Of a stretch of DNA of 64,000 nucleotides, positions 1 through 64,000 are shown one piece after another (within the stretch, counting starts at the first letter, position 1; the number at the start of each line of letters is the position of its first letter). The stretch comes from Sinohyriopsis cumingii (taxonomy: Eukaryota > Mollusca > Bivalvia > Unionida > Unionidae): contig JAPYKE020000273.1 of assembly GCA_028554795.2 (NCBI GenBank), positions 62,001 through 126,000 on the forward strand, in the 5' to 3' direction. The notes under the pieces were generated by a model, which was not told the origin of the DNA, ran no database searches, and saw only the letters and a list, made by a program, of their open reading frames with translations. Both the position numbers and the translations under genes were made by a program.

Positions 1-873
1 ACACAACACTACCACAAGGGTGACCCAACTCAGAAAGGCATTTTCGCAGACTACGTGGATGCCTTTTTGAAACTGAAACAAGAAGCCAGTGGCTATCCTT
101 CCTGGTGTCACATTCCCGCAGATCAAAAGTTATTCAAAGAGAAATACTGGGAGCAGGAAGGTATCACTTTAGACCACATCGAGAAAAACGAAGGCAGGCG
201 ACCGTTTGCCAAAGTGATGTTAAATTGCTTGCGTGGTAAAATGGCACAACGACCGTGTTTACCCAAGACTGAGTATTTGAACAGAACCTTCCCGTTACTT
301 CCAGATGATTCACGACAAAACCAAATACATGAAACACGTGGAGGTCGTTTGTGAGGATTTGATCTTAGTCATTTACGAAGAAGATCTGGACTTTGTACAA
401 GCCGACGAATTTGGAAATGTCATCATTGCGGCTTACGTGACAGCCCATGCTCGCTTAAAATTGTACGAAGCTTTAGCACTGTTAGGGGATCGCGTCCTGT
501 ACTTTGATACAGACAGTTGCATTTACCTTGATCGCCCGGGTCAACATCACCTTAACATCGAAGGAGATTTTTAAGGAGCCTGGACAGACAAGCACCCCGA
601 CGAAAAGATTTTAAGTTTCGCTTGTGACGGTCCTAAAAAGTACGGCTACGAATACCGGGAAAAACAAGGAGAAGTGCACACGGAGTGTAAAGTGAAAGAT
701 TGACAATTAAAGTGATCACCTACCAACCGCACAAGATTGTATGTTTACCCACTCACCAAATCGTCAGTCGATCCCTGAAAAAAGTCTATCAAATCGTGTA
801 CCAGAAGCGAGTGCGTCTTTCCAATCACTTCACTTTGCCGTATGGACATGTCGGTATAAAAAACTGGTTGTGA
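1..873 (+). pseudogene. polB: protein-primed family B DNA polymerase (C-terminal part)
   Basis: This is the palm/thumb end of the Polinton replicative polymerase, which copies the linear element from a terminal protein primer. The visible sequence runs without a start from base 1. It has the FLKLKQEASG block common to Polinton and adintovirus polymerases, then the motif C signature YFDTDS around 502-519, whose two aspartates bind the catalytic metals, and near the end a KVYQIVYQKRV...LPYGH stretch typical of the C-terminus. The copy is dead in three places: a frameshift near 300, a TAA just after GDF at 572-574, and a further shift near 700. The natural stop is at 871-873. The N-terminal exonuclease and terminal-protein regions lie outside the window. 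Confidence 0.88.
855..863 (+). promoter_or_regulatory. TATA box ahead of BIR gene 1
   Basis: TATAAAAAA lies within the last codons of the polymerase, about 42 bases before the ATG of the next gene. The same octamer-like box stands 42 to 62 bases before four genes of this element (BIR1, ATPase, basic core-like protein, QK-GG protein), which supports function rather than chance. Confidence 0.5.
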
Positions 874-896
874 GAGGATAGCCACCAACCAGAAGG

Positions 897-1271
897 ATGA
901 CTTCGCCACCGCAAGAATCGAGTGAGAAACCCAATGAGAACCCCAAGTTCAAACCCTAACATTTTCCGGTCTTCTTACCTTACTATTGTGATTGTGCCCA
1001 TCGATTGGAAACGTTTCAAAAATGGCCCACGGATATGGAAGGATTACCTATTTCGAATGTTTTAGCTAGAACAGGATTTGTCTACTTGGGACCTGAGACT
1101 GGATTTGGATACGAAGTACAGTGTTTCAGTTGCGGCCTGAAGTTACGAATGGATCTATGTATCTATAAAGATTCAGCTATTCTGGAACATACTCGATGGT
1201 CTCCGCATTGTCCTTACCTTTCTATGGCTTTCCACCCATCACACTACGGTACAATTATGACGATACCTTAG
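897..1271 (+). pseudogene. BIR-domain (IAP-like) protein 1
   Basis: BIR domains fold around one zinc ion and, in IAP proteins, bind caspases or their activators. This frame has the order expected of a BIR: R-L-x-T-F-x-x-W-P near residue 36, a GF-Y-LG block, the CFSC zinc pair, then EHTRWSPHC supplying the histidine and last cysteine. No RING domain follows, so it would be a single-BIR protein of about 124 residues. The start at 897 sits behind a TATA box and is chosen because the frame continues through. An in-frame TAA at 957-959 separates a short leader from the BIR. A second BIR gene follows directly. A role against host cell death is an inference from IAPs of large DNA viruses. Confidence 0.75.
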
Positions 1272-1526
1272 AGAAGGTAGTACCGTTGTACAGGAAGAAA
1301 AAAATGAAAACTTCCAAAACTAGACATAAAAAAGGAACGATGTACAAGCTTGAGACTTGAATGCGACTAGTATAAAAAGGGACAATATGCAAGATCGATA
1401 GTTTATTGTGACTACCAAGACCAAGCGAACAAGATGAATCCTTTGAAAGAGAGATCATTCAAGTTCGGTGATTGTAAAAGAAATTTACCTTCCCATAGTG
1501 TGACTAGTAGTGGATAGATAAGACCC
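1272..1526 (+). promoter_or_regulatory. intergenic region with TATA box (1371-1379) ahead of BIR gene 2
   Basis: No gene is seen here. TATAAAAAG at 1371-1379 resembles the boxes in front of other genes in the element. Two ATGs follow (near 1387 and 1434) whose frames close quickly, so the first useful start is at 1527. An upstream duplicate TAAAAAAGG near 1328 is not convincing. Confidence 0.4.
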
Positions 1527-2118
1527 ATGCATTGCGACGAAATATGTCCGGAAGGAAACTGTAAGTGTCCATGCGGTTACCATAGTAATTGCGTAGCAGA
1601 CTACGATCCTGTGTCTTGCGATGAGAGCGATGCTGTACGCTGTCACCTCAGTGATGCAGGAAAGGATCATGGGAACTTTGTTCTCACTACACCTACTATA
1701 GAGAGTGATGCTGTGCGTATCAAACCTGACGGATGCGAAAGCGATGCCACTCCTTATCGTGGACACTTTACTGGTTTTCATTGGATGTCGACCATCACGT
1801 CTACCACTGGATGTCATCCAGCCCTGAGCAATCTTCCGTCTATGTCACCCTACCCTCATCGAAACGAACCTGTGAAATACGAATCTTCGTTCCCTGTGCG
1901 TTTGCCTGAATACTGCAACTTTGAAAATCATTTTCAACCGTTCATTGGAAAATGACCTAAATATCTGGGAGGACCGACACCCGAAGAATTAACCAGAGCC
2001 GGATTTTTCTACTTGGGTGTCACTTCACCACTGGGAACAACAAGATTCGACCTATCTGGAACATGCTCGCTGGTCTCCCAATTGTCACTATTTACCTTTG
2101 GTGGGACGATATCAGTAA
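1527..2118 (+). pseudogene. BIR-domain (IAP-like) protein 2, decayed
   Basis: From about 1842 this repeats the layout of the gene before it: a short S/P-rich leader, FPV-LP-YC, then a BIR start with ELTRAGFFYLG. After the GFFYLG block the CxxC zinc pair is missing, and the frame shifts near 2040 into LEHARWSPNC, which restores the histidine and last cysteine. A TGA at 1953-1955 also interrupts it. The 5' part (1527-1841) is open and Cys-rich (several cysteines in the first 30 codons) with three ESDAVR-like repeats. It may be a separate leader or a remnant of another gene. The two BIR genes look like an old tandem duplication. Confidence 0.62.
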
Positions 2119-2125
2119 TCCCTGA

Positions 2126-2584
2126 ACGGATACTTTACAAGAGAACATTCTTGGTTTGCCTGTGGTGTTGAGAGAACGCATTTACCGAGAACTGGACAAA
2201 ATACAAGTGAAACCTAAAGAACAATTGCATCCGTTACATCACCGCTGTTTAAATCACTGGTACGTGAACGCTATAAAAGGACTGATTCAGTTGAAAGTGT
2301 TCCATTGGTCAGACATTCATCAACTACCCCTTGGTTCAAAGGACTGGTTTGTTATTGATGATTCTATTTGCTACCAGTTAGACTTACTGCAGCAAATTCC
2401 AGAGGAAGAGTTAGAGAGTTACCAAAATCTTTTACACAATGTCACCTTAGTGAAAGAGGAAACTTCTGAACGAATTGTGATGTGCAAGTTAGTGACTAAA
2501 CTATTTAGATTCGCCACTGGAGTAAAATCATCTCTGGGCAGACAGTACACTTATTGTCTCAGACAAAAGGGAGTTTTAGTATGA
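2126..2584 (+). pseudogene. unknown protein, tandem copy A
   Basis: I do not recognise this family. The frame is open and encodes about 150 residues with LRERIYREL, HRCLNHWY and a C-terminal LGRQYTYC block. The following gene is a clear paralogue, which lets the start be judged: where copy B has ATG-GAT-ACT, copy A reads ACG-GAT-ACT at 2126. Its start codon is therefore lost or replaced by a non-AUG start, and the first internal ATG is much later. No zinc ligands or membrane segments stand out, and the composition is that of a globular protein. Confidence 0.6.
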
Positions 2585-2591
2585 CCTAATC

Positions 2592-3520
2592 ATGGATACT
2601 TTACATGAGAACATTCGTGGTTTGCCAGTGGAGTTGAGAGAACGCATTTACCGAGAACTGGTCAAAATACAAGTGAAACGTAAAGAACAATTGCATCCGT
2701 TAGGTCACCGGTGTTTAAACCACTGGTACCTAAATGCTATAAGAGGACTGATTGATGAGAAAGTGTTCCAGTGGTCAGACCTTTTTAAACACTTCTAAGA
2801 CGAGAAGGATCAACATGTTCATGATTTTCGTTACTTCGAGATACACCTACTTCAACGAATTGAGGAAGAAGAGTTGGAAGATTACAAAAATCTGTTACGC
2901 AACATATGCTTAGTGGAAGAGGAAACTTCTGAACGAACTCTGAACTGTAGGTTAGTGCTTGGAGCATTTAGATTTCCAACTGGAGAACGAATGTCTCTGG
3001 GCAGAAAGTACATTTATTGCTTCCGAAAAAAGAGGGTATACAAACAGGTTGCTACGTCACGGCTTTTATCAAAAGTGATTCAACAGACTCCGTGGAAGGA
3101 ACTCAATGACTCTGTTCAAACCGTGGAAGACTACCAACACGTAGTACAACAACTGTATCCATTAACTTTTGGTCGACGTGTTGTGTGTGTCTTAGTGACT
3201 TTTATCTGGAATTTCGTTTATCAGCCGATTCCTTGTGGACTCTTTACCAACAGTACTTACCACCCAATCAAACATGAAAGTGGTGCCTTTAAATGGTCAC
3301 GAGATACTCATTTTGCTCAAAGCCTTGCGTTTTCATGTGGATACTTCTCAACTCTACGGGAAAAAAAGATTCGTCAACTTTTAGGTACCGAAGAGGTGTA
3401 TGATGATGTGTGTGTAGCTTGTGACTTACACCCCCAATTGGATAGATGTACGTGACTGGAAAAAATGGGGTTTTGAGGCTTGGACCCAAGAAGTGGCCCA
3501 GTATGCTCAAGAGTTGTGAC
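2592..3520 (+). pseudogene. unknown protein, tandem copy B (longer)
   Basis: It starts with ATG at 2592 and matches copy A over about 150 codons (RERIYREL, HRCLNHWYLNAI, EEELEDYKNLL, LGRKYIYC). It then continues for a further 150 codons absent from copy A. A TAA at 2796-2798 interrupts the frame. A shift near 3430 moves the end into another frame that closes at 3518-3520 with a Trp-rich DWKKWGFEAW stretch. The extension contains a weak second version of the EDY...R...C pattern, so the protein may itself be an internal duplication. Function unknown. It lies between the BIR genes and the packaging ATPase. Confidence 0.6.
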
Positions 3521-3814
3521 CCTTCCTTCCAACGTACAAGGAAAAAAGTCACTTTTCAATCTGTGTTAGTGACAGTACCAGAAGAACCCGTCATGGACAT
3601 TCCTAAAAGACCATTTCGGGAAGAAACTTGTGTGACATTACCCCCTGTAGAACCTGTAAAAACATTACGCCTTGTCCCTAGGACATCTTGGTTACCCAAA
3701 ACATGTTGTACAGAGACTTGTTTCTATTCCACTTTGATCGTTTTAATGTGCATTTTATCGTTGTACTTAACCCTTTGGCTTTTACGTATTTTAGTCTTTC
3801 GTGTTTATTTTTAA
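3503..3814 (+). CDS. small single-pass membrane protein, unknown
   Basis: About 103 residues, open throughout. The upstream gene ends at 3520, so the ATG at 3503, which overlaps it by 18 bases, is the natural start. An ATG at 3446 is also in frame. The N-terminal 70 residues are polar and proline-rich (PEEP, PPVEPV). The C-terminal 27 or so form one long hydrophobic helix (LIVLMCILSLYLTLWLL) ending in basic and aromatic residues, which suggests a tail-anchored protein. A short cysteine cluster (CCTETC) precedes the helix. No relative is recognised. Its place just before the ATPase would suit a virion or assembly membrane protein, but that is only inference. Confidence 0.5.
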   Translation: MLKSCDPSFQRTRKKVTFQSVLVTVPEEPVMDIPKRPFREETCVTLPPVEPVKTLRLVPRTSWLPKTCCTETCFYSTLIVLMCILSLYLTLWLLRILVFRVYF

Positions 3815-3841
3815 AACATCAGTAAACGTGTCTTGAAAAAG

Positions 3842-3850
3842 TATAAAAAC
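3842..3850 (+). promoter_or_regulatory. TATA box ahead of packaging ATPase
   Basis: TATAAAAAC stands 54 bases before the ATG at 3896, between the stop of the membrane-protein gene and the ATPase. Confidence 0.55.
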
Positions 3851-3895
3851 TCTTGTCTTGTCTGTTTTCGTGTCACAAGTAACATTCCTGACACT

Positions 3896-4624
3896 ATGGC
3901 TACCTCTGCTGTCTCTGCTCCCTCTTCCTCCACTTTCAAAGTCATCGACGAACACTTAGATCGTGCCAGTTGGGAGGCTTTGTATCTTCGCCATCCCTTT
4001 AACATGCTCATTGCTGGACCTAGCGGTTCAGGCAAAACCGAATTTGTCAAACGTTTGATCGAACATAAACATCATTTAATCGATCGTCCACCTCACCGAA
4101 TCGTGTGGTGTTACAAAGAGTGGTAATCGGCGTACAGCCTCTTGCGAGAAAGTCAAGGCGATTCCATCGTGTTTGTGGAAGGCATTCCTAAAAAAGACGA
4201 CGGAATTGTGTCTGACCCCCGTCAAACCCATTTGGTCATTTTCGACGACATGTTAGGAGAAGACGAAGAAGACATTAAACTTTGGTTTACGCGCAAAGGG
4301 CATCTTCGTAATACCAGTGTCATTTACATCACTTCAAATTTGTTTGAACAAAGTAAAGGACATCGCACTTTAAGTCTCAATGCCCATTACCTGGTCTTGT
4401 TTAAAAGCCCTCGAGATAAATCGCAAGTGCAAGTCTTAGCCAAACAGTTAGGAACGCCTTGGCTAACTCATGCGTACGACGATGCCACTCAAACTCCACA
4501 CACCTATTTACTCGTCGATTTTAAACCCACTACCCCTTATTATTTGCAATTTCGTACCCATTTGTTTCACCACTGGTGTCAGGACGGAGGGTGTGTCCTG
4601 TACATGTCTCCGTCCTCGACTTAA
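3896..4624 (+). pseudogene. FtsK/HerA (A32-like) DNA-packaging ATPase
   Basis: This is the genome-packaging ATPase of Polintons and related viruses. The Walker A motif GPSGSGKTEF is about 40 residues from the start, after an S/T/A-rich leader. Walker B, LVIFDDML, with its two acidic residues, is followed by a strand ending YITSN that fits the sensor position. The start at 3896 is preferred because a TATA box lies 54 bases upstream and no ATG falls between. The only lesion seen is TAA at 4124-4126 after WCYKEW, where relatives have a sense codon, so it may be a recent single nonsense change. About 242 codons, near the usual length. Confidence 0.85.
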
Positions 4625-4635
4625 CCCAAAAAATC

Positions 4636-4643
4636 TATAAAAA
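4636..4643 (+). promoter_or_regulatory. TATA box ahead of basic core-like protein
   Basis: TATAAAAA stands about 45 bases before the ATG at 4681 and just after the ATPase stop, with the same spacing as at other genes of the element. Confidence 0.5.
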
Positions 4644-4680
4644 CCTCGGACACTTTTCGTCTGTCTCACACAACGTCAAC

Positions 4681-5495
4681 ATGATGTCCCTTCAGTCTCA
4701 TCTTCCCGTCAAATTGATTCGTGCCTTGTATGGCATCAGTCGCGAGAAAAATCCACAAATACGTGCTCGTGTCTTAGAAGCCAGTCTCAAAGAAGTCTTA
4801 CGATGGTTTACGGTGACAGCAGGTCAATTACTGAAAGTCGTCATTCAGATTCCTCATCAAACCAAACGCTTTTTTGAGAGAAACAAAGTAGCTTTGACCC
4901 AACTGGCCGATCCCCGCACTGACACTCAAACCAAAAAGCAAATCATTTCGAAACCTGGAGGGAGCGGTACTGTAGGAGGTGTCATCATTCGCTCCCTCTT
5001 AAAATGGGATCCTGATGCTCCCAATGTTCTCCCGAAGAAAAAAGCCACTCCCAAAAATACCAAACGAAGCCCCAAGAAGAAAAATAACAACGGTGTCAAG
5101 ACCAGGTCACGACCCAAAAAAAAGAAAAGCCCCCTAAAAAGAAACAGAAAGGTCCCCAGAAAAAGAAAATCTCACAGAAAACAGCTTCTACTCGCAAGAG
5201 AGGCACTTCGGCCAGGACGCAACCTTACATTCGCAAACCACGACCTGCAACGACGGTGACCGCATCTCCGGTAGCCTCAGGTTCATCCACTTCTCCGTTG
5301 ATAACACCATGGAAGCCCTTGTCTCAATGAAGTTCTTCTCCAGTGGTGAAACCCTCCTCTTTAGCTGCAGTGGCAGCCTCTCACAAAGTACCTGCTCCCA
5401 AAATCAAAGTCCAAGAGAGATCGGGAATGTTACAGAGTTTACTGGATTTGTCCAAGCAAGAACTGGTTCGATTTAGTCCCCTTCATGACGTGTAA
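4681..5495 (+). pseudogene. basic DNA-binding or core-like protein with QK...GG domain
   Basis: The first 110 residues are a helical domain ending in a KKQIISKPGG pattern. A long Lys/Arg/Pro tract follows, with many PKKK repeats of the kind seen in viral core and histone-tail-like proteins. After an A-rich stretch near 5115-5150 the frame shifts into a Ser/Thr/Pro-rich tail. That tail passes a TGA at 5327-5329 and ends in a tidy LLDLSKQELVRF block at 5493-5495. The helical domain resembles the next gene (an uncharged loop and then GG), so the two may be old paralogues. Condensing DNA in the particle is a guess from composition. Confidence 0.55.
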
Positions 5496-5528
5496 TGCCT
5501 GTCATCAAGTTAATACGACGCGTACCAG

Positions 5529-5537
5529 TATAAAAAA
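5529..5537 (+). promoter_or_regulatory. TATA box ahead of QK-GG protein
   Basis: TATAAAAAA stands 62 bases before the ATG at 5591 and shortly after the stop of the preceding gene. Confidence 0.5.
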
Positions 5538-5590
5538 GGTCTGCGACAAAGCATGGGTATCAGTGCTTTTGTGCTCCTGAAGACCCTAAG

Positions 5591-5993
5591 ATGTCACCTC
5601 CTAGTAAACATCCCTCTTCTGAACCCAAAGGAAAGAAAAGGAAAGGACTGCCTCCTCGTTTAGTCAAACATGGGGACATGTTGTCTATCCTGTCCAAAGC
5701 TTCTCCACCCATGCGGGCAAAAAAAACTCATTCAAATGGCCTCCAAAGATGTCATCGATACCGTGTGAGAATGTTGTTTGAACGTCTTGAAAGGCACGAT
5801 ACCTTTGTCGAAACACCAGAAACAATGCTTAGGGAAACATCGTCACGTTCTTCGCTAAATGGTTCAAAAGAAAATTCGCATTCGTCAAAAGAAGATGTTG
5901 GTCCAACACGGAGGAATTTTGTCTCTATTGTTAGGACCTTTGCTGAAAGGAGTCTTGGGAACTATGCTGGGAGGACTCGTGGGAGCAAGATAA
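5591..5993 (+). pseudogene. small QK...GG protein of Polinton/adintovirus type
   Basis: The basic leader (KGKKRKGLPPR) is followed by a conserved domain with CECCLNVLKGTIPL, a QK pair, and a C-terminal glycine-rich hydrophobic end (LLLGPLLKGVLG...GGLVG). Small proteins of this shape are common in Polintons and adintoviruses and have no settled function. The leader and the domain are in different frames: an A8 run at 5719-5726 has one A too many. A TAA near 5855 also breaks the domain. The leader's frame stays open to 6028 in the wrong frame, which makes a misleading 145-codon reading. Copy 2 has the same one-base excess in its A run. Confidence 0.6.
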
Positions 5994-6041
5994 AAAGGAC
6001 CTCTGGAGTCCCAAGATCTCAGACGTGACCCTTGACATCGA

Positions 6042-6645
6042 ATGGAAGGACGAAAGCTAGCTTTAGTGCCTTACAAACGATGGATGGAATACCATCGTTT
6101 GCAAGAACAACGAACCCCGCATTTGCCTCCCAATCCCAATTTGAGCGAGATGTCCCAGTTACAACACGAGTTGCAGTCATTGATGGATCGCCTCGATTTG
6201 TCAAATCACAAAAGTACGGTCAACTCTTGCAACGACTGCAATTCTTTCACCAGAAAGCTTTAGCAGTAAAAGCTCTACCCACTTTGAAAGATTTTAAGAC
6301 CTAGATGAAAAGTTCTCCAACACTACCAACCCAAAACTACTACTCCCAGTCACCAAGACAGAACAAGGAGAAGAAGAAGGGCATCAAACTCCGCCAGAAA
6401 ACTTACGCAAGTTAACAATACCACCTACATCGAGAATTGGATGGACTAAAAAGATGATGACCACTCCTTCTTCATCAGAAGAGGAAACGAAGGTGAAGAT
6501 AGAAGTGAAACAAGATCCGATTACCCCTGTTCAGCCATCATCCTCAACGACACCTATCGCTGGCCGGACACGCAAAGCATTACAAACCAAGAAAATACCA
6601 CACGAGAAAAAGAGCAGCATCAGCGAAGAGTGGGTGACTTATTAA
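6042..6645 (+). pseudogene. proline-rich Polinton protein preceding integrase
   Basis: It starts with GRKLALVPYKRWMEY, continues through a helical QLQHELQSLMD region and ends with the sequence SEEWVTY just before the integrase start. Copy 2 keeps the same gene intact at 228 codons, which shows what is missing here: a frameshift near 6200, a stop at 6302-6304 and loss of most of the polyproline middle. Unknown function. The conserved position next to the integrase and the LVP start are shared with other Polintons, to my recollection. The remaining C-terminal part (from 6454) is charged and serine-rich. Confidence 0.65.
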
Positions 6646-6657
6646 CAAAATAAAAAA

Positions 6658-7344
6658 ATGGAGAAGGTGTTAGCCAGCATTTACTACGATCCATCCCATT
6701 CTACAGGTTACGGAGGAGTTCAAAAATTGTATCGTGCTGACAAACCTGAACTGAAAATTCTCCGTTTACCTCAAGTGCAACGATGGTTACAAGAACAAGC
6801 TACCTACACTTTACACAAACCTATTCGACGCAAGTTTTCCGGAAGTCGCACCCAACTGGAAGGCATCGATCATCAATGGCAAGCCGATTTAACCAATGTC
6901 TGTCATTTGGCCACCTACAATAGCGGGTACAAATATTTGTTTTGTGTCATAGACGCCTTTTCCATATTTGCCTGGGTCGTGCCACTGATTTCCAAATCGA
7001 GCAGCGAGTTAGTGCGAGCCCTGTAGCGGGTGTTGAAACAAAACGGTCGCCACCCTCGTCGATGGCAAACGGACAAAGGCACAGAATTTCTGAACCATGC
7101 TTTCCAAAAAGAATTAAAGAAACGTGACATTCATATTTTTTTTACCACCAAGAATCCTGAAACCAAGGCTCGCATCGTGGAACATTTTCAACCTGCTTTG
7201 AAAGAACGCGTGTGGAAATATTTTACGCATCACCACACTCTCAAGTACATCGACATCTTACCGCAACATTGCTACAAAAGGAGAACCTTTGACAAAATAT
7301 TCCATTCACCAAAGGAAAAGTCATTTTCGAAAACGGTTCTCTAA
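6658..7344 (+). pseudogene. int: DDE integrase fused by deletion to penton tail
   Basis: This is a retrovirus-like integrase that inserts the element. The catalytic residues of the rve core can be read: D in WQADLT, D in QTDKGTEF, and E in KARIVEHF. A TAG at 7024-7026 interrupts the core. After about 7265 the sequence no longer matches integrase. It matches the last 26 codons of the penton gene of copy 2 (FHSPKEKSFSKTVL against the end of that gene). The integrase C-terminal domain, the chromodomain and nearly all of the penton gene are therefore missing, a loss of roughly 1.7 kb judged by copy 2. Confidence 0.85.
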
Positions 7345-7357
7345 CGAGTTGTAAGTC

Positions 7358-7799
7358 ATGTATCCAGTGTACCGAGGTGTCGCTCGACAGCGAGGACATG
7401 GTTTAGGAGATATGTTAAAATCGGCCTTTCGTTCGGTGGCATCCGTGTTGAAACCGATGGTGACACGAGCACTGTACGCCTTGAAAGATGCCGCACTGAC
7501 GCAAGGCAAAGAATTTCTCCAAAATGTCATCATCGACAAACAAAACCCTAAAGAAGCTTTCTTGAGAGCAGGCAAAAATGTCTTGTTGCAAACAGGCAAA
7601 GACATTTTGGGTCGACGAGAAACTCCTATAAATGTCCTGAATGCTACTGAATCAGGCATTCCCGCTTCCCTGACTCCACAGTAAGGACACGGCAGAAAAA
7701 GACGACGAAGAAAACATCCCTTCAGAAGCATTCATACACCGAATGCTAGAAAGGCTAAGAAAAGAAGAACTGCTCGAGACTTAGACATTTATGATTATT
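7358..7799 (+). pseudogene. pVI-like minor capsid/core protein
   Basis: It begins MYPVYRGVARQRGHGLGD, then has an amphipathic helical region (MLKSAFRSVASVLKPMVTR), a central G-rich part, and a strongly basic end (GRKRRRRKHP) closing with DLDIYDY. This YRG...QRG-G-G start and basic tail are typical of the small minor-capsid protein that sits beside the capsid genes in Polintons and has been likened to adenovirus pVI/pX. A TAA at 7682-7684 separates body and tail, and everything else is open. The start ATG is kept here, whereas copy 2 has AAG at that point. Confidence 0.65.
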
Positions 7800-7820
7800 A
7801 AATTATTGAGAAACAGGAAA

Positions 7821-9135
7821 ATGATGCGCCGAGAGTCTTGCGCCAGTTGCAAGTCGGAACTGGATCTGTTTGCCATGCCACCCACCATGATGACGATGCA
7901 AGAATCTCAGTGGGTCGAATTTCATCCCGTCTCCTCTTTGACGGATTCAGCTCCCATTGAGTTTGATATGAAAGGTCAGCCCAAATATTACATTGATCTG
8001 AATAGCAGTTACCTGTACTTGAAAGTCAAAGTGATCAAAACGGACAACACTAATACAGAAGCCGATGCTAGAGTAGCTCCTGTCAACAATTTCATACATT
8101 CCTTGTTCAGTGAGGTGGACTTGTACTTGAATAACAAACTGGTCAGCAGCAGCATGGATACTTACCCTTATCGGGCGTACCTGGAAAATCTCTTGACGTA
8201 CGGAAAAGAAGCCAAGAATACTCATCTGGATGCCTACGTGGTATGGAAACCTGACACAGCGGGTGAGAACACGTTTAACGACAAAGGCCTGACAGCAGAT
8301 GACGATCCTCACAATGTGGGGTTTAATGACTGTCGTAAGAAAATTATGCAAGGACGTAGTTTAGAAATGTTGGATCGTTTGCATTTGGACATATGGATAC
8401 AAGAAAAGTATTTGCTGAACGGAGTGAATATCCGCCTGAGACTGAATCTTAGCAGTGCCGCTTTCCATTTGATGGCCAATGCCAACGAATACAAAACTAT
8501 CATCCAAGAAGCCAGGCTCTTCCTGTGGAAGTGTTACCTAAAATCGGAAATGACATCAGTCACACTTTGAGCAGAACGACCGCCAAGTATCCGATACGAA
8601 GAGTGGAAGTGAAAACGTTCACTATTGCTACTGGACAGCGATCCATGATCGAAGATCATCTATTCCAAGGACATTTACCCTAACGTTTGATCATTGGCTG
8701 CGTCAAGAATTCAGCCTTCAATGGACTTCACAACGAAAACCCTTTTCAGTTTCAACATTACAACTTAGCCAAAATCGAAGTCAGTCGCGATGGCAAGACA
8801 CTGTGTACCAGACCCTTTGAGCCTAAGTTTGGTGACAGGAATTATTTGAGATCGTACTTGTCCCTGTACGAAGCCACCGGACAATTAGGGACCAACACCA
8901 GTCACGGTATTTCGTACGACGATTATGTAGGAGCTATGCTTTGTGGGCTTTTGACTTCACTCCAGACCAAGGCAGCGACGAGGGACATTTTTACCCTATA
9001 AAATCCGGTCAGATTCGTGTGGAACTTCAGTTTGCGAATCCACTACCCCCAGATAACAGTGAACGTCATCCTGTATGCCGAATTCGATAATACCTAGAAA
9101 TCAACAGTCTGAGAGAAGTCATTCTAGACTATTAG
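7821..9135 (+). pseudogene. major capsid protein, double jelly-roll (hexon-like)
   Basis: This is the Polinton/adintovirus major capsid protein, which in invertebrate gene sets often appears as a protein 'F54H12.2-like'. Recognisable blocks are SLFSEVDLYLNNKLVS, DTYPYRAYLENLL, a QEKYLLNGV segment and, late, AFNG...NPFQF. The start is set at MMRRESC, in line with copy 2, because the ATG at 7791 still overlaps the previous gene. Lesions: a loss of about 8 bases near 8527 relative to copy 2, TAA at 8682-8684, single-base shifts near 8936 and 9060, and one near 9094. The natural end is REVILDY at 9133-9135. Length about 440 codons. Confidence 0.85.
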
Positions 9136-9140
9136 AAGCC

Positions 9141-9623
9141 ATGGAAGACTGTTATTCCTATTTACATAGTGGAGAATCTTTGGACATGGAATGTGAGGAG
9201 ACCATAAAAGGAGAACCCCACGACAAAGACGAAGAAGTCATAATGATGAAGTCCCGATTGCCAGAACAAGAACAGCATTTAGTCTCCTGTTTTGCTATAT
9301 ACCTGTCAGAAAACGTTAAGGAATTGATCAAGAAAGATTGCTATGGATGTTAAAACGATCATCCCAGTCAAATTCAACACGATAAATGCTTGATGCTGAG
9401 TCAAGAAGAAAAATTAGACGAGTATCTGGAAAAAGCTTGGAGTCTCATCTCGGAAGAAGACGTGTTTCATCGGTGGTATAAAGGCTTGCGTAAATATTCT
9501 TGTGCTCCATTAACGCCTCTGGAGATCAGTCGCATCGAAACTCTCTTGGACCAGGGTACGAAGTCGGAGCTAATACCCGTTTACTTGTCAGACTTTTCCA
9601 AGAGAAAGTCAGGATCGAATTGA
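9141..9623 (+). pseudogene. CYGC/DHPSQ-motif Polinton protein
   Basis: It starts six bases after the capsid gene. It is an acidic N-terminal region, then a helical EQEQHLVSCFAIYLSE segment and the motif DCYGC...NDHPSQ..H..CL, which recurs in a late gene of many Polintons and adintoviruses and looks like a small metal site (two Cys, His, Cys). The second half has EEDVFHRWYKGL and ends in SDFSKRKSGSN. A TAA at 9351-9353 falls between CYGC and NDHPSQ, where copy 2 has CAA, so one base change explains it. Function unknown. Position between capsid and protease suggests a virion-related role. Confidence 0.65.
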
Positions 9624-10227: not shown

Positions 10228-10435
10228 AAAAAATGTTTGTTTGTTGATTGAATGGTTAATTTAAAAAAAAATGTTAATTGTTAGTTGTGAGTTATTTGAA
10301 TAAAAAAATGTTGTGTTTTGAAGAAAAAAATGCGTTTGTCGTTTGTTTTTTGCCATGGGTATCATGAACCATGCTCTTTGACTTCTCTCTATCCCTCACA
10401 TCACACTATTTTAGCGTTCCGACTCGAAACCGTGT
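10228..10435 (+). other. A/T-rich 3' region after the protease
   Basis: Four short T-rich repeats (TTTGTTG, TTAATTG) and three A-runs followed by ATG occur here. AATAAA at 10299-10304 can serve as the polyadenylation signal of the protease gene. No stem-loop of the kind found after the next three genes is present, so the late genes and the cassette probably end their mRNAs differently. Confidence 0.4.
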
Positions 10436-10475
10436 AGGGATGTTTTCCTTCGCGTCCGCGCTTTTACCATAAAAG
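10436..10475 (+). promoter_or_regulatory. cassette promoter box 1 with TATA-like CATAAAAG
   Basis: GGGATGTTTTCCTTC is followed by GCGTCCGCGCTT and then CATAAAAG at 10468-10475, 42 bases before the ATG. The same box precedes the next two genes with only a few changes, and copy 2 has it at the equivalent first gene. Confidence 0.6.
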
Positions 10476-10516: not shown

Positions 10517-10744
10517 ATGTGCTCAAGATTAGCCAAGCTGAACGAAGCCTACGTGAATTTTCATCTGGTCATGACAAGTCTGATACCGAGACCTGAAGAG
10601 ATAGATAATGTCAGAATGTTAAAAGTCACTGAAGACCTGATGGAAGAGCTCTTCAGAGAGGAAATCAAGAAGGAGAAAGAAGAATGGACGGAGAAGTACA
10701 GACTACAGAATCAGCAAAGAGAGCAGCAGCAACAAGAGCAGTAG
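10517..10744 (+). CDS. cassette gene 1: short charged coiled-coil protein
   Basis: It starts with MCSRLAKLNEAYVN at the first ATG after the promoter box. About 75 codons follow, mostly Glu/Lys with heptad-like spacing, and it ends in a run of glutamines. The reading may continue to 10883 in another frame, where a plausible tail with PILWESLPPYEV is found. Copy 2 has the same split, with the tail still recognisable, so the Gln-repeat is the likely site of slippage. No family recognised. It is followed by a histone-type stem-loop. A distant likeness of its start to cassette gene 2 (SRL.KL.E) suggests common descent. Confidence 0.5.
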   Translation: MCSRLAKLNEAYVNFHLVMTSLIPRPEEIDNVRMLKVTEDLMEELFREEIKKEKEEWTEKYRLQNQQREQQQQEQ

Positions 10745-10905
10745 AAACCAGACAGAGGTTTTGTCAACTGCAGTGTCGACAGCAAAGTGTTCTCCTTCTC
10801 TTTCCGAAGAAGCAGACCCTATCCTGTGGGAAAGCCTGCCGCCATACGAGGTCGCAGTCTTAGATCATAAAAGATTGCCATAGCTCCTTGTTCACACAAA
10901 TAAAC

Positions 10906-10942
10906 AGCCCTTTCAGGGCTACCCGATACTCTAGAAAGGAAA
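10906..10942 (+). terminator. histone-type 3' stem-loop and downstream element, gene 1
   Basis: AGCCCT-TTC-AGGGCT pairs perfectly over six bases (10906-10920) and is followed by ACCC. After 12 bases comes the purine-rich AGAAAGGAAA (10933-10942). This is the layout of replication-dependent histone mRNA 3' ends: a stem-loop bound by SLBP, then the element paired by U7 snRNA. The loop is one base shorter than the usual four. Confidence 0.65.
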
Positions 10943-11166
10943 TACTCATTAAATTGCCAATGGTATGTTAGAAAAAATAGAAGTGCGTCTATAAGCACAT
11001 TATTTGTTAATCTTGGTTAGAAAGTGTGACTCTAAGTCCTTCGTTTCCGTCGCTTGTCAAAAGAAATGTTCAATGAGTGATTGTCAGTAAAACAAGTAAG
11101 TGAGTGTTTCTTTTAGGTCCGCGCGTTTTTAGTGATAATATGGATAATGTAAGAATTGGGTGTTAA
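10943..11166 (+). other. spacer between cassette genes 1 and 2
   Basis: The part next to the stem-loop (TTGCCAATGGTATG) is also present after the other cassette genes, so it belongs to the repeated module. The rest is A/T-rich with no reading frame, apart from a TAGGTCCGCGCGTT near 11114 that looks like a decayed promoter box. Confidence 0.4.
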
Positions 11167-11206
11167 GGGATGTTTTCCTTCACGTCCGTGCTTAAAGTAT
11201 TTATAG
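11167..11206 (+). promoter_or_regulatory. cassette promoter box 2 with TATA-like TATTTATA
   Basis: GGGATGTTTTCCTTC, ACGTCCGTGCTT, then TATTTATAGG. The 5' leader that follows (ACGCTCGGCAGTCTGGCTA) is shared with the equivalent gene of copy 2. Confidence 0.6.
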
Positions 11207-11257
11207 GAAAACGCTCGGCAGTCTGGCTACCCATCGTTGACCTGTCAACATTAAAGA

Positions 11258-11824
11258 ATGAACAGTAGAATAGAAAAACGTATTGAACTTCAGATGTGCC
11301 TGGAATATGCCAGGCGCTTGTTGGACGAGCTGGCCATGGAGGCTATAGCAGAGCAAGCTAGGATAGAGGAGGAAGAGGAATAAAAGAAGAGGAAAGAAGA
11401 GGAGGAAAAGAAGGAGGACATAGCAGAGGAAGCAAAAATAGAAGAGGAGAGAAAAAAGAAAGACGAGGAAAAGAAAAAAGCTATATTATCTCATCTCATG
11501 ATGAGAGCTCTGTGTGAGGTTAAGCCAGAGGCAAGGACGCCTCCGCAGAGGCAAGCACTGGGCACTATACCAACACAACAGTCTCTACCAGTACCACCGC
11601 CAGTAGCATTACAGGTGCGTGCAGAGAATATAAGGAGACCCCAACATCCTAGAGTATGGAATAGAAGAAGAGAGAGGGAAGTTTTGACAATCTCATAGAC
11701 AGAACATTGGGAGAGTGAAGCCAATCAACCTCCCTCTGCGCTCCCGACAATAAGAGTGAATTGGGAGAACGATTGGAGCCGTCGATGTGTCTGCGGTGCC
11801 AGGCCGGGGAGATGTAGGCATTAG
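11258..11824 (+). pseudogene. cassette gene 2: coiled-coil protein with Cys-rich end
   Basis: It starts MNSRIEKRIELQ and contains ARRLLDELAMEA, identical in copy 2. A long Glu/Lys/Arg coiled coil follows, then a Pro-rich section and a conserved end DWSRRCVCGARPGRCRH with three cysteines. In-frame stops at 11381-11383 (TAA) and 11696-11698 (TAG) interrupt it. Copy 2 keeps the same end in the corresponding place, so the two parts are one gene of about 188 codons. The Cys/Arg-rich end could bind zinc or nucleic acid; that is inference. The family is not recognised. Confidence 0.6.
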
Positions 11825-11851
11825 CCAGGTGCATCTGAAGTTAGAAAAAAC

Positions 11852-11892
11852 AGCCCTTCTCAGTGCTAGCCAATACTCTAGGAAAGAGAAAC
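11852..11892 (+). terminator. histone-type 3' stem-loop and downstream element, gene 2
   Basis: AGCCCT-TCTC-AGTGCT (11852-11867) has five of six pairs and a four-base pyrimidine loop. GGAAAGAGAAAC begins 13 bases after it. Copy 2 has a compensated version with G-U pairs at the same point. Confidence 0.55.
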
Positions 11893-11959
11893 TTTTCAAA
11901 TTGCCAATTGGTGTAAATATGGAGTAGTGTGAATATAAACACTTACTCCTTTACTAATG

Positions 11960-12020
11960 ATATTGTGTGTGTGTGTTTGTGTGTGTGTGTTTGTGTGTGT
12001 GTGTGTATGGGTGTGTTTGT
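11960..12020 (+). repeat. GT microsatellite
   Basis: About 28 GT units with T-T interruptions. Copy 2 has the complementary CA tract at the same place in its cassette (55982-56017). Confidence 0.85.
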
Positions 12021-12039
12021 AAGCGCTCACGTACGTTTG

Positions 12040-12290
12040 TGTGGATAGTATATTATTACGGTTTGTAAGCACTCGCGTACGTTTGTGTAGATAGTAGAGT
12101 GTGTGCTTAGTTTAAACTTACTTTCTGTGTGGATAGTAGATTTTGGGTTTAATTTGGCTTCTCCGTTTGTGTGGATAGTAAGTTTGGGGTTTGTTTATGC
12201 TTCTCCGCGAGTGTGGAGAGCATAGTTTGGGTTTGATTTTTGCTTCTTCGCGTGTGTGTGGATAGTAGATATCGGATTTGACTAGTAGAT
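12040..12290 (+). repeat. element-internal minisatellite, unit about 42 bases
   Basis: About six imperfect units, each with GTGTGGATAGTA, a GGGTTT stretch and GCTTCTCCG. It lies between cassette genes 2 and 3. Copy 2 has the same repeat, complementary, at 55680-55960, so it was part of the element before the copies separated. Confidence 0.8.
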
Positions 12291-12310
12291 AATATGAGAA
12301 GAGAAAAATA

Positions 12311-12348
12311 GGGACGTTTTCCTTCACGTCCGTGCTTTACATAAAAAC
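12311..12348 (+). promoter_or_regulatory. cassette promoter box 3 with CATAAAAAC
   Basis: GGGACGTTTTCCTTC, ACGTCCGTGCTTT, then CATAAAAAC, 48 bases before the ATG. It is the third copy of the box in the cassette. Confidence 0.6.
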
Positions 12349-12395
12349 TCAAAGCGTTCGTTATTCTCGCCATTCTACGAAATAAGCGAGAGACG

Positions 12396-12980
12396 ATGGC
12401 AGGAGTGACTGATTTATTTAATAACTTGAGAGATAGCTATTTCTGGATAATGAATGGAACTTACGTGATGGAAAAGTTAGAAAAGGAATTAAAGCATGAT
12501 GGCAGTCGAGATTATATGACCAGTTTGAAAATAGCTACAGACCTGGTGCAATGAATGACTGAGGAAGAAGTGGAAAGAATAAGAGGATTGATTGACCCAC
12601 CTTATTTGAGAGTGGGAAGTTTAAAGAAAGCCCTGCATCATGTCATCCAAGTCAGGTGCTTCCATGAAGACAGCTTTTATTGGACCAACTGGTGGTACGT
12701 AAAGTGGGGTCTCAACCAGCTGATAAAAGCAGAAGAACTCGTCAGAAAGTAAATGAAGGTAGAAGTGAAGAAGATAAAAGAAAAATGGAGTAAAGAAAGA
12801 AAGGAAGAAGATAATATGAAGAAGAAAGAGGAGTTTGAAAGACTGAATAATAATTGGATGAAGATACAAGAGAAGTTTAGAACATTGGGTCATCCAGACT
12901 GGATTCAAGAGTTGGAAAAGGAGAAGAAGAAAGGAATAATTGGGAAAGTGATGAAATGGATGAAGAAGTGGAGGAAATAG
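12396..12980 (+). pseudogene. cassette gene 3: Trp/Lys-rich helical protein
   Basis: One frame runs from MAGVTDLFNNLRD to KWMKKWRK, 194 codons, with a TGA at 12552-12554 and a TAA at 12750-12752. Each of the two stops is directly followed by ATG in the same frame (TGA-ATG and TAA-ATG). The middle is Trp-rich (FYWTNWWYVKWG) and the end is Lys-rich (KEKKKGIIGKVMKWMKKWRK). It may be one broken gene or three short frames read by reinitiation. The last part is kept in copy 2 with IIGK...WWNNWRK. No known family. Confidence 0.5.
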
Positions 12981-12994
12981 AAGAAGAACCCAAA

Positions 12995-13034
12995 GGCCCT
13001 TTTCAGGGCCCCTTATTGCCATCGAAAAGAAATG
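12995..13034 (+). terminator. histone-type 3' stem-loop and downstream element, gene 3
   Basis: GGCCCTTTTCAGGGCC (12995-13010) agrees fully with the metazoan histone stem-loop consensus, with six pairs and the loop TTTC. The purine-rich GAAAAGAAATG begins 13 bases later (13024-13034). It is the best match of the six. Confidence 0.75.
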
Positions 13035-13049: not shown

Positions 13050-13416
13050 CCCAAAATTTTTTAAAATGTCGTATCAGTGTTTGTCTCTTGTCTGTGTTCT
13101 CTCTGTACACCCTGCGCTTTGTTCAGTCCTGTGACGTCACCTTCCCAAGTTGCTACATTGTTATCAACCTCCCCTACTGTGACGTCAGACGCTATCTTTC
13201 CCTTGTCCCTTTACAGGTTCAATACTTTTTGGTCCCTGTATAGTCCCACCCATGATAAATTTCCCATTTTAAATTTCCCATTGTCCCTATATCGTCCCAG
13301 GGTGTGTGTCTGTAATGTATTTTCCCACTGTCCCTATAAATCTTGTCCCTATATCGTGCCGGGGGGTGCGTCTGTAATGTATTTTCCCATAGTCCCCCTA
13401 TCGTCCCACTTCACTA
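13050..13416 (+). repeat. subterminal repeat region and 3' end of Polinton copy 1
   Basis: Short tracts of TCCC, TTTCCCATT and GTCCCTATA repeat through 13200-13410. Read inward from its end it matches the same region of copy 2 (GGGAAATTTA-CATGG-TGGGACTATA), so this is the terminal repeat of the element. Two perfect TGACGTCA sites lie at 13132-13139 and 13180-13187. A frame open across it has no coding character. Confidence 0.7.
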
Positions 13417-16894: not shown

Positions 16895-17238
16895 CGCGCG
16901 CGCGCGTGTATGTGTGTGTGTGTGTCTGATTTAGATTTTTAACGTAGCTTTAACAATTTTTCAATCATATCGCTACGATGTCCGTTGTGTGGCATTTAAT
17001 AATGATGTCTAGCACTGGGGCATCATGCCACAGACATGTAGCATGATTTCCCATCCAGTCATATTATCCTGACACCAGGCCGACCAGTCCTAACACTAAC
17101 CTCTTAGTGCTGAGCGCCTAGCGAGGCAGCTGTTAGTACCATTTGTTATATGTCATTGGTATGACTTGGCCGGTGTTCGAATCCGCGACCTCCCGCATCC
17201 AAGACGGACGCTCTAACCACTGGGCCACCAGAACGGTC
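16895..17238 (-). mobile_element. tRNA-headed SINE, copy 2
   Basis: Same orientation and layout as the copy before it, with a B box variant (GGATTCGAACA) and an intact A-box region. Its 3' side is a CG/TG repeat at 16888-16924. Confidence 0.72.
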
Positions 17239-55530: not shown

Positions 55531-55562
55531 CAAGAAAGCAAATCTTTAGGAGGCATATGAGT

Positions 55563-55679: not shown

Positions 55680-55960
55680 ACCACAAATTACTATCCACAC
55701 ACGGGAAAGAGCAAAAACAAGACACAAATATACTGACAACACACGCGAAGAAGAAAAACAAAGCACAAATATACTATCTACACACAGGAAGAAGAAAAAA
55801 CATACCACAAATATAATATTCACACACGCGAGGAAGAAAAAACAAACCACAAATATACTAACCACACACAGAAAGGAGCAAAAACAAACCCTAATATACT
55901 ATCCACACAAACTTACGCAAACGCTTACAAACCCCAATAATCTACTATCCACACAAACGT
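55680..55960 (-). repeat. element-internal minisatellite, unit about 42 bases
   Basis: Complement of the repeat in copy 1, with about seven units of ATACTATCCACACA plus AAACAAACCACAAA. Confidence 0.85.
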
Positions 55961-56020: not shown

Positions 56021-56078
56021 AAAATAGTAAAGGAGTGAGTGTTTATAATCACACTCACTTCAATTGGCAACTTGAATA

Positions 56079-56114
56079 GTCTCTTTAAAAAAATTGTTAG
56101 CCCTGAGAAAGACT
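56079..56114 (-). terminator. histone-type stem-loop and downstream element, gene 2 of copy 2
   Basis: Minus strand AGTCTT-TCTC-AGGGCT (56114 to 56099) pairs over six positions if G-U is allowed. AAAGAGACT follows 11 bases later (56087 to 56079). The pairing is kept although three stem bases differ from copy 1. Confidence 0.5.
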
Positions 56115-56745: not shown

Positions 56746-56958
56746 ATACCCTGTTACCAAAACTTACTTGGCCCATATCATTACCCAGAGAATCATGGAA
56801 ACATGGACTTAAAAGAAACACTCACTCACTTTTTACTTACAAACACCAATTACAATCACAAGCTCACTGACTATTTTGACAAACTACGGAAACGAAGTGC
56901 TTATAGACACACTTCTATATTTTATAACTTACTAACAAACCATTGGCAGTTGAATTAG

Positions 56959-56998
56959 CATATCTTTTCTAGCGCATTGGGTAGCCCTGAAAAGGGTT
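56959..56998 (-). terminator. histone-type stem-loop and downstream element, gene 1 of copy 2
   Basis: Minus strand AACCCT-TTTC-AGGGCT followed by ACCCA, then AGAAAAGATATG 12 bases on. Five of six pairs are kept, with the consensus loop and flank. Confidence 0.65.
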
Positions 56999-58754: not shown

Positions 58755-60053
58755 CTAATGGTCTAAAATGACTTCTCCCAGACTGGTATTGTCGAATTTG
58801 GCATACAGGATGACCTTCATCGATTTGTCTGCGTGTAGATTTTCTGCAAACTGAATTTCCACTCAAATCTGGCCCGAATTTATAGGGTGGAAATGTCCCT
58901 CGTCACTGCCTTGGTCTGGAGTGAAATCAAAAGCCCACAAAGTATAGCCTCCTGCATAATCATCGTACGTAATACCGTGACTCGTGTTCCTAACTGTCCG
59001 GTGTCTTCGTACAGGGTCAAGTAAAATCTCAAATAATTCCTATTGGTAAAGTCAGGTTCGAAAGGTCTGTTACACAAGGTTATGGCGTCGCCACTAACTT
59101 CGACCTTGGACACTTTGTCGAGCTGAAACTCGAAAGGATTTTCCTTGTAGTCTCCGTTAAAGGCTGTATTTTTGACGATGCCAACGATCAAACGTTTGGA
59201 TAACTGTCCTTGGGACAGATGATCTTCGATCATGGATCGCTGGTTAGCGGAAATGGTGAACATTTTTACTTCCACGCGTCGTATCGGATAATTGGTGGTC
59301 GTTCTGTTCAAAGTGTGACTTATGTCGTTTCCCACTTTAGGTAACACTTCCACATGTCGCACGTAAAGTCGGGCTTCTTGGATGACGGTTTTGTACTCAG
59401 CAGCATCAGCTATCAAATAGAAAGCTGCACTGTTACGATTCAGTCTCAGGCGAACATATACTCCATTCAGCAAATACTTCTCTTGCACCCACATGTCAAA
59501 TGCAAACGATCCATCAGTTCTAAACTACGTCCATGCAGGATTTTCTGTCGACGGGCGTTAAAGCACACATTGTGAGGATTTCCTTTAATACTGACAGTTC
59601 TGTGTCGTTAAACTTTTTCTCAACTCCTGTGTCAGGTTTCCATACCAACCAAGCATCCAGATGAGTGTTCTTGTCTTCTTTTCCGTACGTCAAGAGATTT
59701 TAGAGGTACGTTCGGTAAGGGTAAGTATCCATGTTACTGCTGACGAATTTGTTATTCAAGTACAAATCCTCTTCACTGAACAAGGATGCATGAAATTGTT
59801 GACGGGATCAACTCTAGCCTCACCAGGCAGAGCGAGATTCTCGCCCATTTTGATCACTTTGACTTTCAAGTGCAAGTAACTGTTATTCAGATCAATGTCC
59901 TTTGATTTCAAACTTTATGGGAGCCGAATCCATCAAAGAGCAGACCGGATGAAATTCGACCAATTGGGATTCTTGCATAGTCATCAGAGTGAGTGGCATG
60001 GCAAACATATCTAGCTGGGACTTGGAACAGGCACAAGACTCTCGGTGCATCAT
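58755..60053 (-). pseudogene. major capsid protein, copy 2
   Basis: Start MMHRESCACSK, with the conserved blocks LFSEEDLYLNNKFVS, DTYPYRTYL, QEKYLLNGVYVRL, and the end LGEVILDH. The second half (from about 59494) is open for 200 codons and includes the short segment lost from copy 1. Stops and shifts occur mainly in the first half (59500-59930) and near 58990. The two copies break at different points. Confidence 0.82.
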
Positions 60054-60071
60054 TTTTTCTGTCTCTCTTAT

Positions 60072-60404
60072 TTAATAATCAAAAACGTCTAAGTCTCGGA
60101 CGGTTCTTCTTCAGGCAGCGTTCATAGCATTTATAAGGGTTTCTCGTCGACCCAAAATGTCTTTGCCTGTTTGCAGCAAGACATTTATGCCTGCTCTCAA
60201 GAAAGCTTATTTGGGGTTTTGCTTGTCGATGATGACATTTTGGAGATATTCTTTGCCTTGCGTCAATGTGGCATCCTTCAATGCGTGCAATACGCGTGTC
60301 ACCATCAGTTTCAACACGGGGTCTACTGAACGAAAGGCTGATTTCAGCATATCACCTAAACCATGTTCTCGCTGTCGAGCGACGCCTCGGTACACTGGAT
60401 ACTT
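60072..60404 (-). pseudogene. pVI-like minor capsid protein, copy 2
   Basis: It matches copy 1 from YRGVARQREHGLGD to RRETLIN. The start codon is AAG where copy 1 has ATG. A stop follows NPK at 60207, and most of the basic tail is deleted before DLDVFDY. Confidence 0.65.
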
Positions 60405-60417
60405 GACTTACAATTCG

Positions 60418-61330: not shown

Positions 61331-61359
61331 CTAATTCCAGAGTTCTGCAGTCCTATGGG

Positions 61360-61753
61360 TTACTTGTAGTCAGCGTAGTATCTCCGCCCAAAATGTTGTT
61401 CTAGTTGGAATGGTGACTGACGTTGGACGCAAGGCCTCCCCTGTTCCCTTTCGAGGAGTATTTCAGTGAAGGACTGGGAAGAAGGTAACCGATGCAATTG
61501 CTCAATAAAATGGTCCACAATTGTTTCTCTCTTTGTTGCAAACTCAAATTGGCAATGTCAGCACCCACGACACAATACACCACAAAGATTTGGAAGAAAA
61601 GACGATTTGCATTTTAGGCACACGTTCAGCACACCACATCCACAAGCGTTGCTTTTGTAGATCTTGCAGAGAAGAACTGGGTAAAGGAGTGGACACTGCA
61701 GTGGTAGAGGTAGCTGAGGAAGTGTGGAAGGGCACGATGGTCACTTTTTTTAT
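61360..61753 (-). pseudogene. small unknown gene between integrase and penton
   Basis: Decayed frames read KKVTIVPFHTSSATS, LQDLQKQRLWMWCAERV, FATKRETIVDHFIEQLHRL and the end FQLEQHFGRRYYADYK. Shifts join them in one order. The expected start is ATA, perhaps from ATG. Its relation to known Polinton genes is unclear. Confidence 0.4.
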
Positions 61754-62843: not shown

Positions 62844-62845
62844 TT

Positions 62846-63532: not shown

Positions 63533-63580
63533 TCGATTTCAAGGGTCACGTCTGAGATTTTTGGACTACAGAGGTCCCTT

Positions 63581-63988: not shown

Positions 63989-64000
63989 CGCTGGGACTTC

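Follow-up and report, generated by a model that had tools for sequence, protein, structure and literature searches.

Probable histone-type 3' signals on three non-histone genes of a decayed Polinton/adintovirus-type element in Sinohyriopsis cumingii

To our knowledge, the two-part 3' signal of stem-loop and histone downstream element (HDE) is known in animals for histone messages only. According to PMC7026596, SLBP binds the histone stem-loop, the 5' region of U7 pairs with the HDE (the mouse core being CUCUUU), and the histone pre-mRNA is cleaved 4-5 nt past the loop. PMC10388802 describes the second stem G as required by SLBP, and reports wild-type affinity when the loop has two A on the 5' side and one A on the 3' side. 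Here we describe what is probably a signal of the same bipartite type on three small non-histone viral genes (genes 1-3) in a 64 kb stretch of a contig of the bivalve Sinohyriopsis cumingii (JAPYKE020000273.1; the whole stretch analysed is hereafter called the window). The genes belong to a Polinton/adintovirus-type element which, like animal Polintons/Mavericks and adintoviruses, appears to have an integrase (rve), an A32-like ATPase, an adenain-like protease and a protein resembling one from a tubeworm-associated contig (L003, described below); it differs from them in genes 1-3 with their candidate histone-type 3' ends.

Two copies of the element were found. Copy 1, a decayed element on the + strand, occupies the initial 13 kb of the window, and in it pieces of the integrase, a piece of the ATPase and the protease are followed by the three small genes; its left end appears to lie outside the window. 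Copy 2, at ~55.5-64 kb on the - strand, is a second, diverged and more broken copy. The genes of copy 1 and the signals of both copies are listed below (RF00032 is the Rfam family of the histone 3' stem-loop; distances of the purine core are counted from the loop).

10517..10870, + strand: gene 1 of copy 1, a frame of 117 codons interrupted by a single stop at 10742; stop codon 10868-10870
10906-10920, + strand: stem-loop of gene 1, copy 1 (AGCCCTTTCAGGGCT), with a 3-nt loop; RF00032 17.0 bits, E 0.73 (all families); -8.6 kcal/mol, z -2.58
10934..10944, + strand: HDE-like purine element of gene 1, copy 1 (GAAAGGAAATA); AAAGG starts 14 nt past the loop
11258..11824, + strand: gene 2 of copy 1, a frame of 188 codons interrupted by stops at 11381 and 11696; stop codon 11822-11824
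11852-11867, + strand: stem-loop of gene 2, copy 1 (AGCCCTTCTCAGTGCT), 5/6 pairs and a UCUC loop; not reported by Rfam at E<=10
11881..11891, + strand: HDE-like purine element of gene 2, copy 1 (GGAAAGAGAAA); AAAGA 15 nt past the loop, contains AAAGAG (6/6)
12396..12980, + strand: gene 3 of copy 1, a frame with two in-frame stops; stop codon 12978-12980
12995-13010, + strand: stem-loop of gene 3, copy 1 (GGCCCTTTTCAGGGCC), perfect; RF00032 30.2 bits, E 9e-6; -10.9 kcal/mol, z -1.49
13024..13034, + strand: HDE-like purine element of gene 3, copy 1 (GAAAAGAAATG); AAAGA starts 15 nt past the loop
56983..56998, - strand: stem-loop of gene 1, copy 2 (AACCCTTTTCAGGGCT), 5/6 pairs; RF00032 18.4 bits, E 0.22
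56959..56969, - strand: HDE-like element of gene 1, copy 2 (GAAAAGATATG); AAAGA 15 nt past the loop
56099..56114, - strand: stem-loop of gene 2, copy 2 (AGTCTTTCTCAGGGCT), 6 pairs, two of them G-U; not reported by Rfam at E<=10
56081..56086, - strand: HDE-like element of gene 2, copy 2 (AAAGAG), 12 nt past the loop
55563..55578, - strand: decayed stem-loop of gene 3, copy 2 (GGCCCATTTTAGGACC), aligned to copy 1; z -0.02; not reported by Rfam
55543..55547, - strand: HDE-like core of gene 3, copy 2 (AAAGA), 15 nt past the loop

A sequence-only reading of this DNA had placed a histone-like stem-loop past all three genes of copy 1, with a purine-rich element 12-14 bases further on. A stem-loop does stand past each of them, and a purine run begins 12-13 nt past each loop, its AAAGG or AAAGA core following at 14, 15 and 15 nt. 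The histone-like form is borne out at gene 3 and only in part elsewhere, gene 1 having a 3-nt loop and gene 2 a C/U mismatch with its UCUC loop. The gene 3 stem-loop, which had been called a perfect consensus, is indeed perfect in its 6-bp stem and UUUC loop, though its score is under the RF00032 gathering score of 34 bits.

When both copies are taken together, AAAG(A/G) lies 12-15 nt past the loop in 6/6 signals, at 1-3% per site expected from local sequence, and TGCC follows 29-34 nt downstream, again in all six. The hexamer AAAGAG, complement of the mouse U7 CUCUUU core (the host's own U7 was not compared), is matched at 5-6 of its 6 bases in five of the six signals. G is present at the second stem base in 5/6 signals (A in gene 1 of copy 2), A is present on the 3' side in five of the six, and in genes 1 and 2 the stem is immediately preceded by a C, itself preceded by a run of A. 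A stem of 6 bp with a 4-nt pyrimidine-rich loop is complete at gene 3 of copy 1 and, with its two G-U pairs, at gene 2 of copy 2. The stem-loops begin 35, 27 and 14 nt after the stops of genes 1, 2 and 3 in copy 1, and 33, 28 and 5 nt after a stop in copy 2, the last being a candidate stop.

Compared with the metazoan histone 3' end (RF00032, SLBP/U7), gene 3 has the same 6-bp stem, T-A closing pair and UUUC loop, and the A-rich 5' flank, purine HDE and TATA-like box are also found at this locus, as is an ACCC 3' flank in gene 1. The 14 nt between stop and stem-loop in gene 3 falls within the 6-17 nt given for Hydractinia histone genes in PMC5011920. The differences are that the genes are non-histone and lie in a Polinton-type element, that the first stem pair, G-C in gene 3, is A-U in genes 1 and 2, that 27-35 nt separate stop and loop in these two, that gene 2 has the UCUC loop, and that the scores are under the Rfam threshold.

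The whole 64 kb was scanned with Rfam in five pieces at E<=10, with filters somewhat stricter for the longest piece (14000-54500). RF00032 gave three sub-threshold matches, whose E-values refer to 4227 families and 4.5 kb (single-family values would be 4227 times smaller, by the tool's description), all three just past the stops of these genes and on the coding strand, and nothing in 1-9500, 14000-54500 or 59000-64000; the histone3 model search proposed by the sequence-only reading, carried out over the window, found these gene ends and yielded nothing at the gathering score. Hairpins by themselves barely exceed expectation: a simple hairpin descriptor had 7 matches vs 3.0 expected (3/7 at gene ends) and a looser one 41 vs 40.4, neither being significant, and hairpin descriptors without the purine element are therefore not used as evidence. 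With AAAGR at 12-15 nt added, the looser hairpin occurs at four sites on both strands of the 64 kb, 4/4 at these gene ends and on the coding strand, against a mean of 0.53 and a maximum of 3 in 100 shuffles; this descriptor fails to pick up gene 1 in copy 1 and gene 3 in copy 2. Among 101 exact histone stem-loop cores in IMG/VR, AAAGR at 12-15 nt was found in 0/101, and an ACC flank together with the purine element likewise in none. None of the 101 core stretches was hit by tblastn with pieces of the element (among them integrase, protease, PolB and capsid-type), and these cores are accordingly taken as chance matches.

Taken together, the stem-loops are real and, as a group, not a product of chance, a conclusion that owes its strength to the combination of hairpin, purine element, position and second copy. 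It is likely that these viral genes, none of them a histone gene, carry a bipartite 3' processing signal of histone type, and this is supported by the confinement of the Rfam matches to gene ends, the near-constant purine spacing in 6/6 signals and the second copy.

A number of observations weigh against this assignment. No RF00032 match in the window reaches the gathering cut-off (best 30.2 bits), half of the six signals, namely both of gene 2 and that of gene 3 in copy 2, escaped Rfam even at E<=10, and the rule on spacing had been derived from these same sequences before sites were counted. A fold clearly superior to that of shuffled sequence is seen only at gene 1 of copy 1 (3/200 reach it), the folds of the other five being reached by 12, 22, 39, 88 and 117 of 200 shuffles; that of gene 2, copy 1, is no better than shuffles (z +0.35). 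Pair covariation across the six signals was reached by 68/500 shuffles. The gene 1 loop of copy 1 is one T shorter than that of copy 2, and the UCUC loop of gene 2 is found in both copies. Both copies are decayed, and two element copies were examined. Poly(A) signals also lie close to gene 1. In copy 1 an AATAAA (10899) precedes the stem-loop by 7 nt and an ATTAAA follows 42 nt from the start of the stem-loop; in copy 2 an AATAAA, at a different site, precedes the stem-loop by 38 nt. The sequence-only statement that the genes lack a nearby AATAAA accordingly fails for gene 1; it stands for genes 2 and 3, which in both copies have no AATAAA/ATTAAA within -150..+200 of the stem-loop.

To the same side of the account belongs the matter of ancestry. 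The six signals are not independent, as they come from two copies and from 3' regions that are kin, and a single remote origin of all three gene ends is possible. The region past the HDE is common to genes 1 and 2 (0/300 shuffles as good), and these two are therefore counted as one lineage; over 84 nt past the HDE, gene 3 is weakly similar to genes 1/2, with 15-165 of 300 shuffles as good in eight comparisons. Upstream of the signals, gapped alignment of 60 nt of gene 3 with genes 1/2 was equalled by 47-291 of 300 shuffles (eight comparisons), and by 183 of 300 for gene 3 of copy 1 vs gene 1 of copy 2. Without gaps, that pair is identical at 13/16 positions of the stem-loop and 10/11 of the HDE, but at 6/24 upstream, 6/13 in the spacer and 9/36 downstream. 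In the order upstream, stem-loop, spacer, HDE and downstream, the ungapped identities were 10/24, 12/16, 4/13, 7/11 and 7/36 for gene 3 vs gene 2 of copy 1, and 8/24, 10/16, 6/13, 8/11 and 14/36 for gene 3 vs gene 1 of copy 2; ungapped counts understate the flanks, gene 3 of copy 1 vs copy 2 reaching just 12/24 upstream and 12/36 downstream. Judged by these alignments, stem-loop and purine element stand out at constant spacing against diverged flanks.

Two further kinds of 3' feature have to be considered with the stem-loops. The protease gene is followed by an AATAAA conserved between the copies, and in both copies genes 1 and 2 have a second hairpin, with the 8-nt loop GNNTATAA, past the first stem-loop.

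10299..10304, + strand: AATAAA downstream of the protease gene; retained in copy 2 at the aligned position (57604)
10983-10998, + strand: second hairpin of gene 1, copy 1; z -1.7
11922-11948, + strand: second hairpin of gene 2, copy 1; z -3.4
56894-56915, - strand: second hairpin of gene 1, copy 2; z -4.1
56034-56059, - strand: second hairpin of gene 2, copy 2; z -5.0

Measured from the first stem-loop, the loops of these hairpins begin at 67, 64, 75 and 49 nt; the loop is invariant, and the stem varies yet pairs (4-9 bp unbroken). Sites with this loop and a stem number 5 in the window vs 1.4 in shuffles (maximum 6), 4/5 of them at genes 1 and 2, and none of this kind was seen after gene 3.

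These hairpins bear on the first alternative, by which the hairpins are termination signals of the mimivirus/virophage 'hairpin rule', so that the transcript would then be polyadenylated and neither SLBP nor U7 involved. Virophages are kin to Polintons and the giant viruses have hairpin 3' ends, which share with the present signals a hairpin near the stop codon, and the second hairpin of genes 1 and 2, mostly the stronger one and 49-75 nt on in both copies, would fit such a rule. In mimivirus and virophage transcripts such hairpins are general and precede poly(A); in the element they are short and histone-like, come with an HDE and are found on three genes. The first hairpins are of histone type in their 6-bp stem, pyrimidine loop, A-rich 5' flank and HDE at about 15 nt, a conserved AATAAA takes their place at the protease, and gene 3 is without the second hairpin. 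We consider this explanation unlikely. Equally improbable is that the genes are ordinary poly(A) genes and the stem-loops chance or functionless relics: the AATAAA near gene 1 in both copies and the hairpin counts barely above chance speak for it, but the positions, the purine element in 6/6 signals, the want of AATAAA/ATTAAA at genes 2 and 3 and the Rfam E of 9e-6 at gene 3 speak against it. Very unlikely, finally, are dual-type mRNAs, in which the stem-loop would hold SLBP for translation, localisation or stability only and a poly(A) tail would be made downstream, as PMC3661734 describes polyadenylated mRNAs from some replication-dependent histone genes under certain conditions, and as conservation past the expected cut site (the TGCC in 6/6, the second hairpin in four) might suggest, since genes 2 and 3 have no AATAAA/ATTAAA within 200 nt past the stem-loop and the HDE, a cleavage element, is retained.

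The in-frame stops in genes 1, 2 and 3 of copy 1 mark them as relics. Gene 1 has nine metagenome homologues, six of them alike over the full length (112-126 aa), one differing at the C-terminus and two partial; they are helical with a basic C-terminal tail. The structure model of one of them (P0077) has helices at 4-22 and 26-80 followed by a low-confidence tail (pTM 0.36), and had no match in a viral structure library. A C-terminal W(E/D)NDWSRRC.CGARPGRC is common to gene 2 of both copies. No homologues of the gene 2 piece were found at E<=1e-3, the gene 2 and gene 3 pieces had no Pfam family above cut-off, and BLASTP of P0077 against the gene 2 piece and against the first gene 3 piece gave no alignment, gene 2 vs gene 3 being outside this comparison.

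In copy 1 each of the three genes is preceded by a promoter module, TTTTCCTTC(A/G)CGTCCG(C/T)GCTT, and a TATA-like box.

10443..10474, + strand: promoter module of gene 1 (TTTTCCTTCGCGTCCGCGCTT), then a CATAAAA TATA-like box; 2 mismatches to the gene 2 module
11173..11193, + strand: promoter module of gene 2, then TATTTATA; query of the motif scan
12317..12337, + strand: promoter module of gene 3, then CATAAAA; 0 mismatches to the gene 2 module

In copy 2 the module is found only at gene 1, as the next best site in the window (4 mismatches); at genes 2 and 3 nothing lies within 6 mismatches. With a common promoter module and the 3' signals, genes 1-3 therefore look like one set regulated at both ends.

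The assignment of the element is based on Pfam matches, all under the curated cut-offs (rve, E 1e-4 and 1.9e-4; Peptidase_C5, E 0.0037; Pox_A32, E 2.7e-4), on 74 homologues of the protease in a large protein set, and on a protein of copy 2 matching L003 at 32% over 168 aa (E 2e-30), which we take, by recognition, to be of capsid type. A presumed PolB piece at 281-571 was picked out by eye from a sequence motif and was not reported by Pfam. The element further contains a BIR (inhibitor of apoptosis) domain (960-1268; PF00653, E 1.2e-14) and, at 2128-3037, a ~465 bp tandem duplication across open reading frames with 73-88% identity and no convincing Pfam family. Tandem repeats of 42-46 nt with GTGTGGATAGTA lie between genes 2 and 3 (12034-12280, six units in copy 1), and similar ones were seen by eye in copy 2 at about 55690-55960. 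Near the right end of copy 1, at 13281-13396, are two 54-nt units (TTGTCCCTATATCGTCCC...) that are 89% alike. Outside copy 1, a tRNA-like sequence at 17162-17234 on the - strand (RF00005, 29.1 bits) is possibly a tRNA-derived short interspersed nuclear element.

Few relatives of the element were recovered as DNA. Scans of IMG/VR with the protease, capsid, gene 1, the PolB piece and two DNA patterns (genes 2 and 3 were not among the queries) found no locus encoding a relative of genes 1-3; the element relatives there were two weak protease matches only (L001 and L002), neither with RF00032 at E<=10, and tblastn of gene 1-3 pieces against all 104 collected loci gave no matches. One clearly related element DNA came from a scan of prokaryote genomes: L003 (1-3607, 3.6 kb), filed in a metagenome-assembled genome (MAG) of a bacterial tubeworm endosymbiont and presumably host-animal contamination of that MAG. 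Its gene order is protease, then an opposed gene, and a capsid-type gene is also present (labels from similarity), together with what we take, partly from sequence motifs, to be a probable PolB gene. L003 encodes nothing related to genes 1-3, and RF00032 gave no match in it; the feature therefore does not adjoin every Polinton protease.

We are aware of no earlier case in which the metazoan histone 3' end is used by a non-histone gene, a virus or a mobile element. In open-licence literature nothing was found that joins Polinton with 'histone stem-loop', or 'histone-like stem-loop' with virus, which is weak evidence of absence. In PMC12220804, histone, stem-loop and adintovirus are each mentioned once. 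PMC11071296, a preprint on adintoviruses and their kin, contains neither 'stem-loop' nor 'polyadenyl', and its two uses of 'histone' both concern viral histone-like proteins.

By analogy with histone messages, we infer poly(A)-free ends, use of SLBP and U7, S-phase gating and possibly an early or replication role for the set. In an intact ancestor, host SLBP would sit on the stem-loop and host U7 snRNP (small nuclear ribonucleoprotein) would pair with the AAAGR element, and the pre-mRNA would be cut a few bases past the loop to leave a mature viral mRNA without a poly(A) tail. Processing, export, translation and decay of this mRNA would be as for histone mRNA; it would be plentiful in DNA-replicating cells (in S phase, and probably in eggs and embryos) and removed otherwise. 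One element would then carry two kinds of 3' end, the protease with AATAAA and genes 1-3 with the stem-loop. On balance we lean towards the broader view that a lineage of such elements keeps non-histone genes with a common promoter and an SLBP/U7-dependent, poly(A)-free end, tied to replication or to SLBP-rich eggs and embryos.

If this is true, the rule that this mRNA ending belongs to histones only would be broken by a mobile element that ends three mRNAs in this way, and genes of this kind would be missed by poly(A)-selected RNA-seq. They would provide natural non-histone substrates for SLBP and U7, and a virus-like element would be reading the S phase of its host without encoding a sensor of its own.

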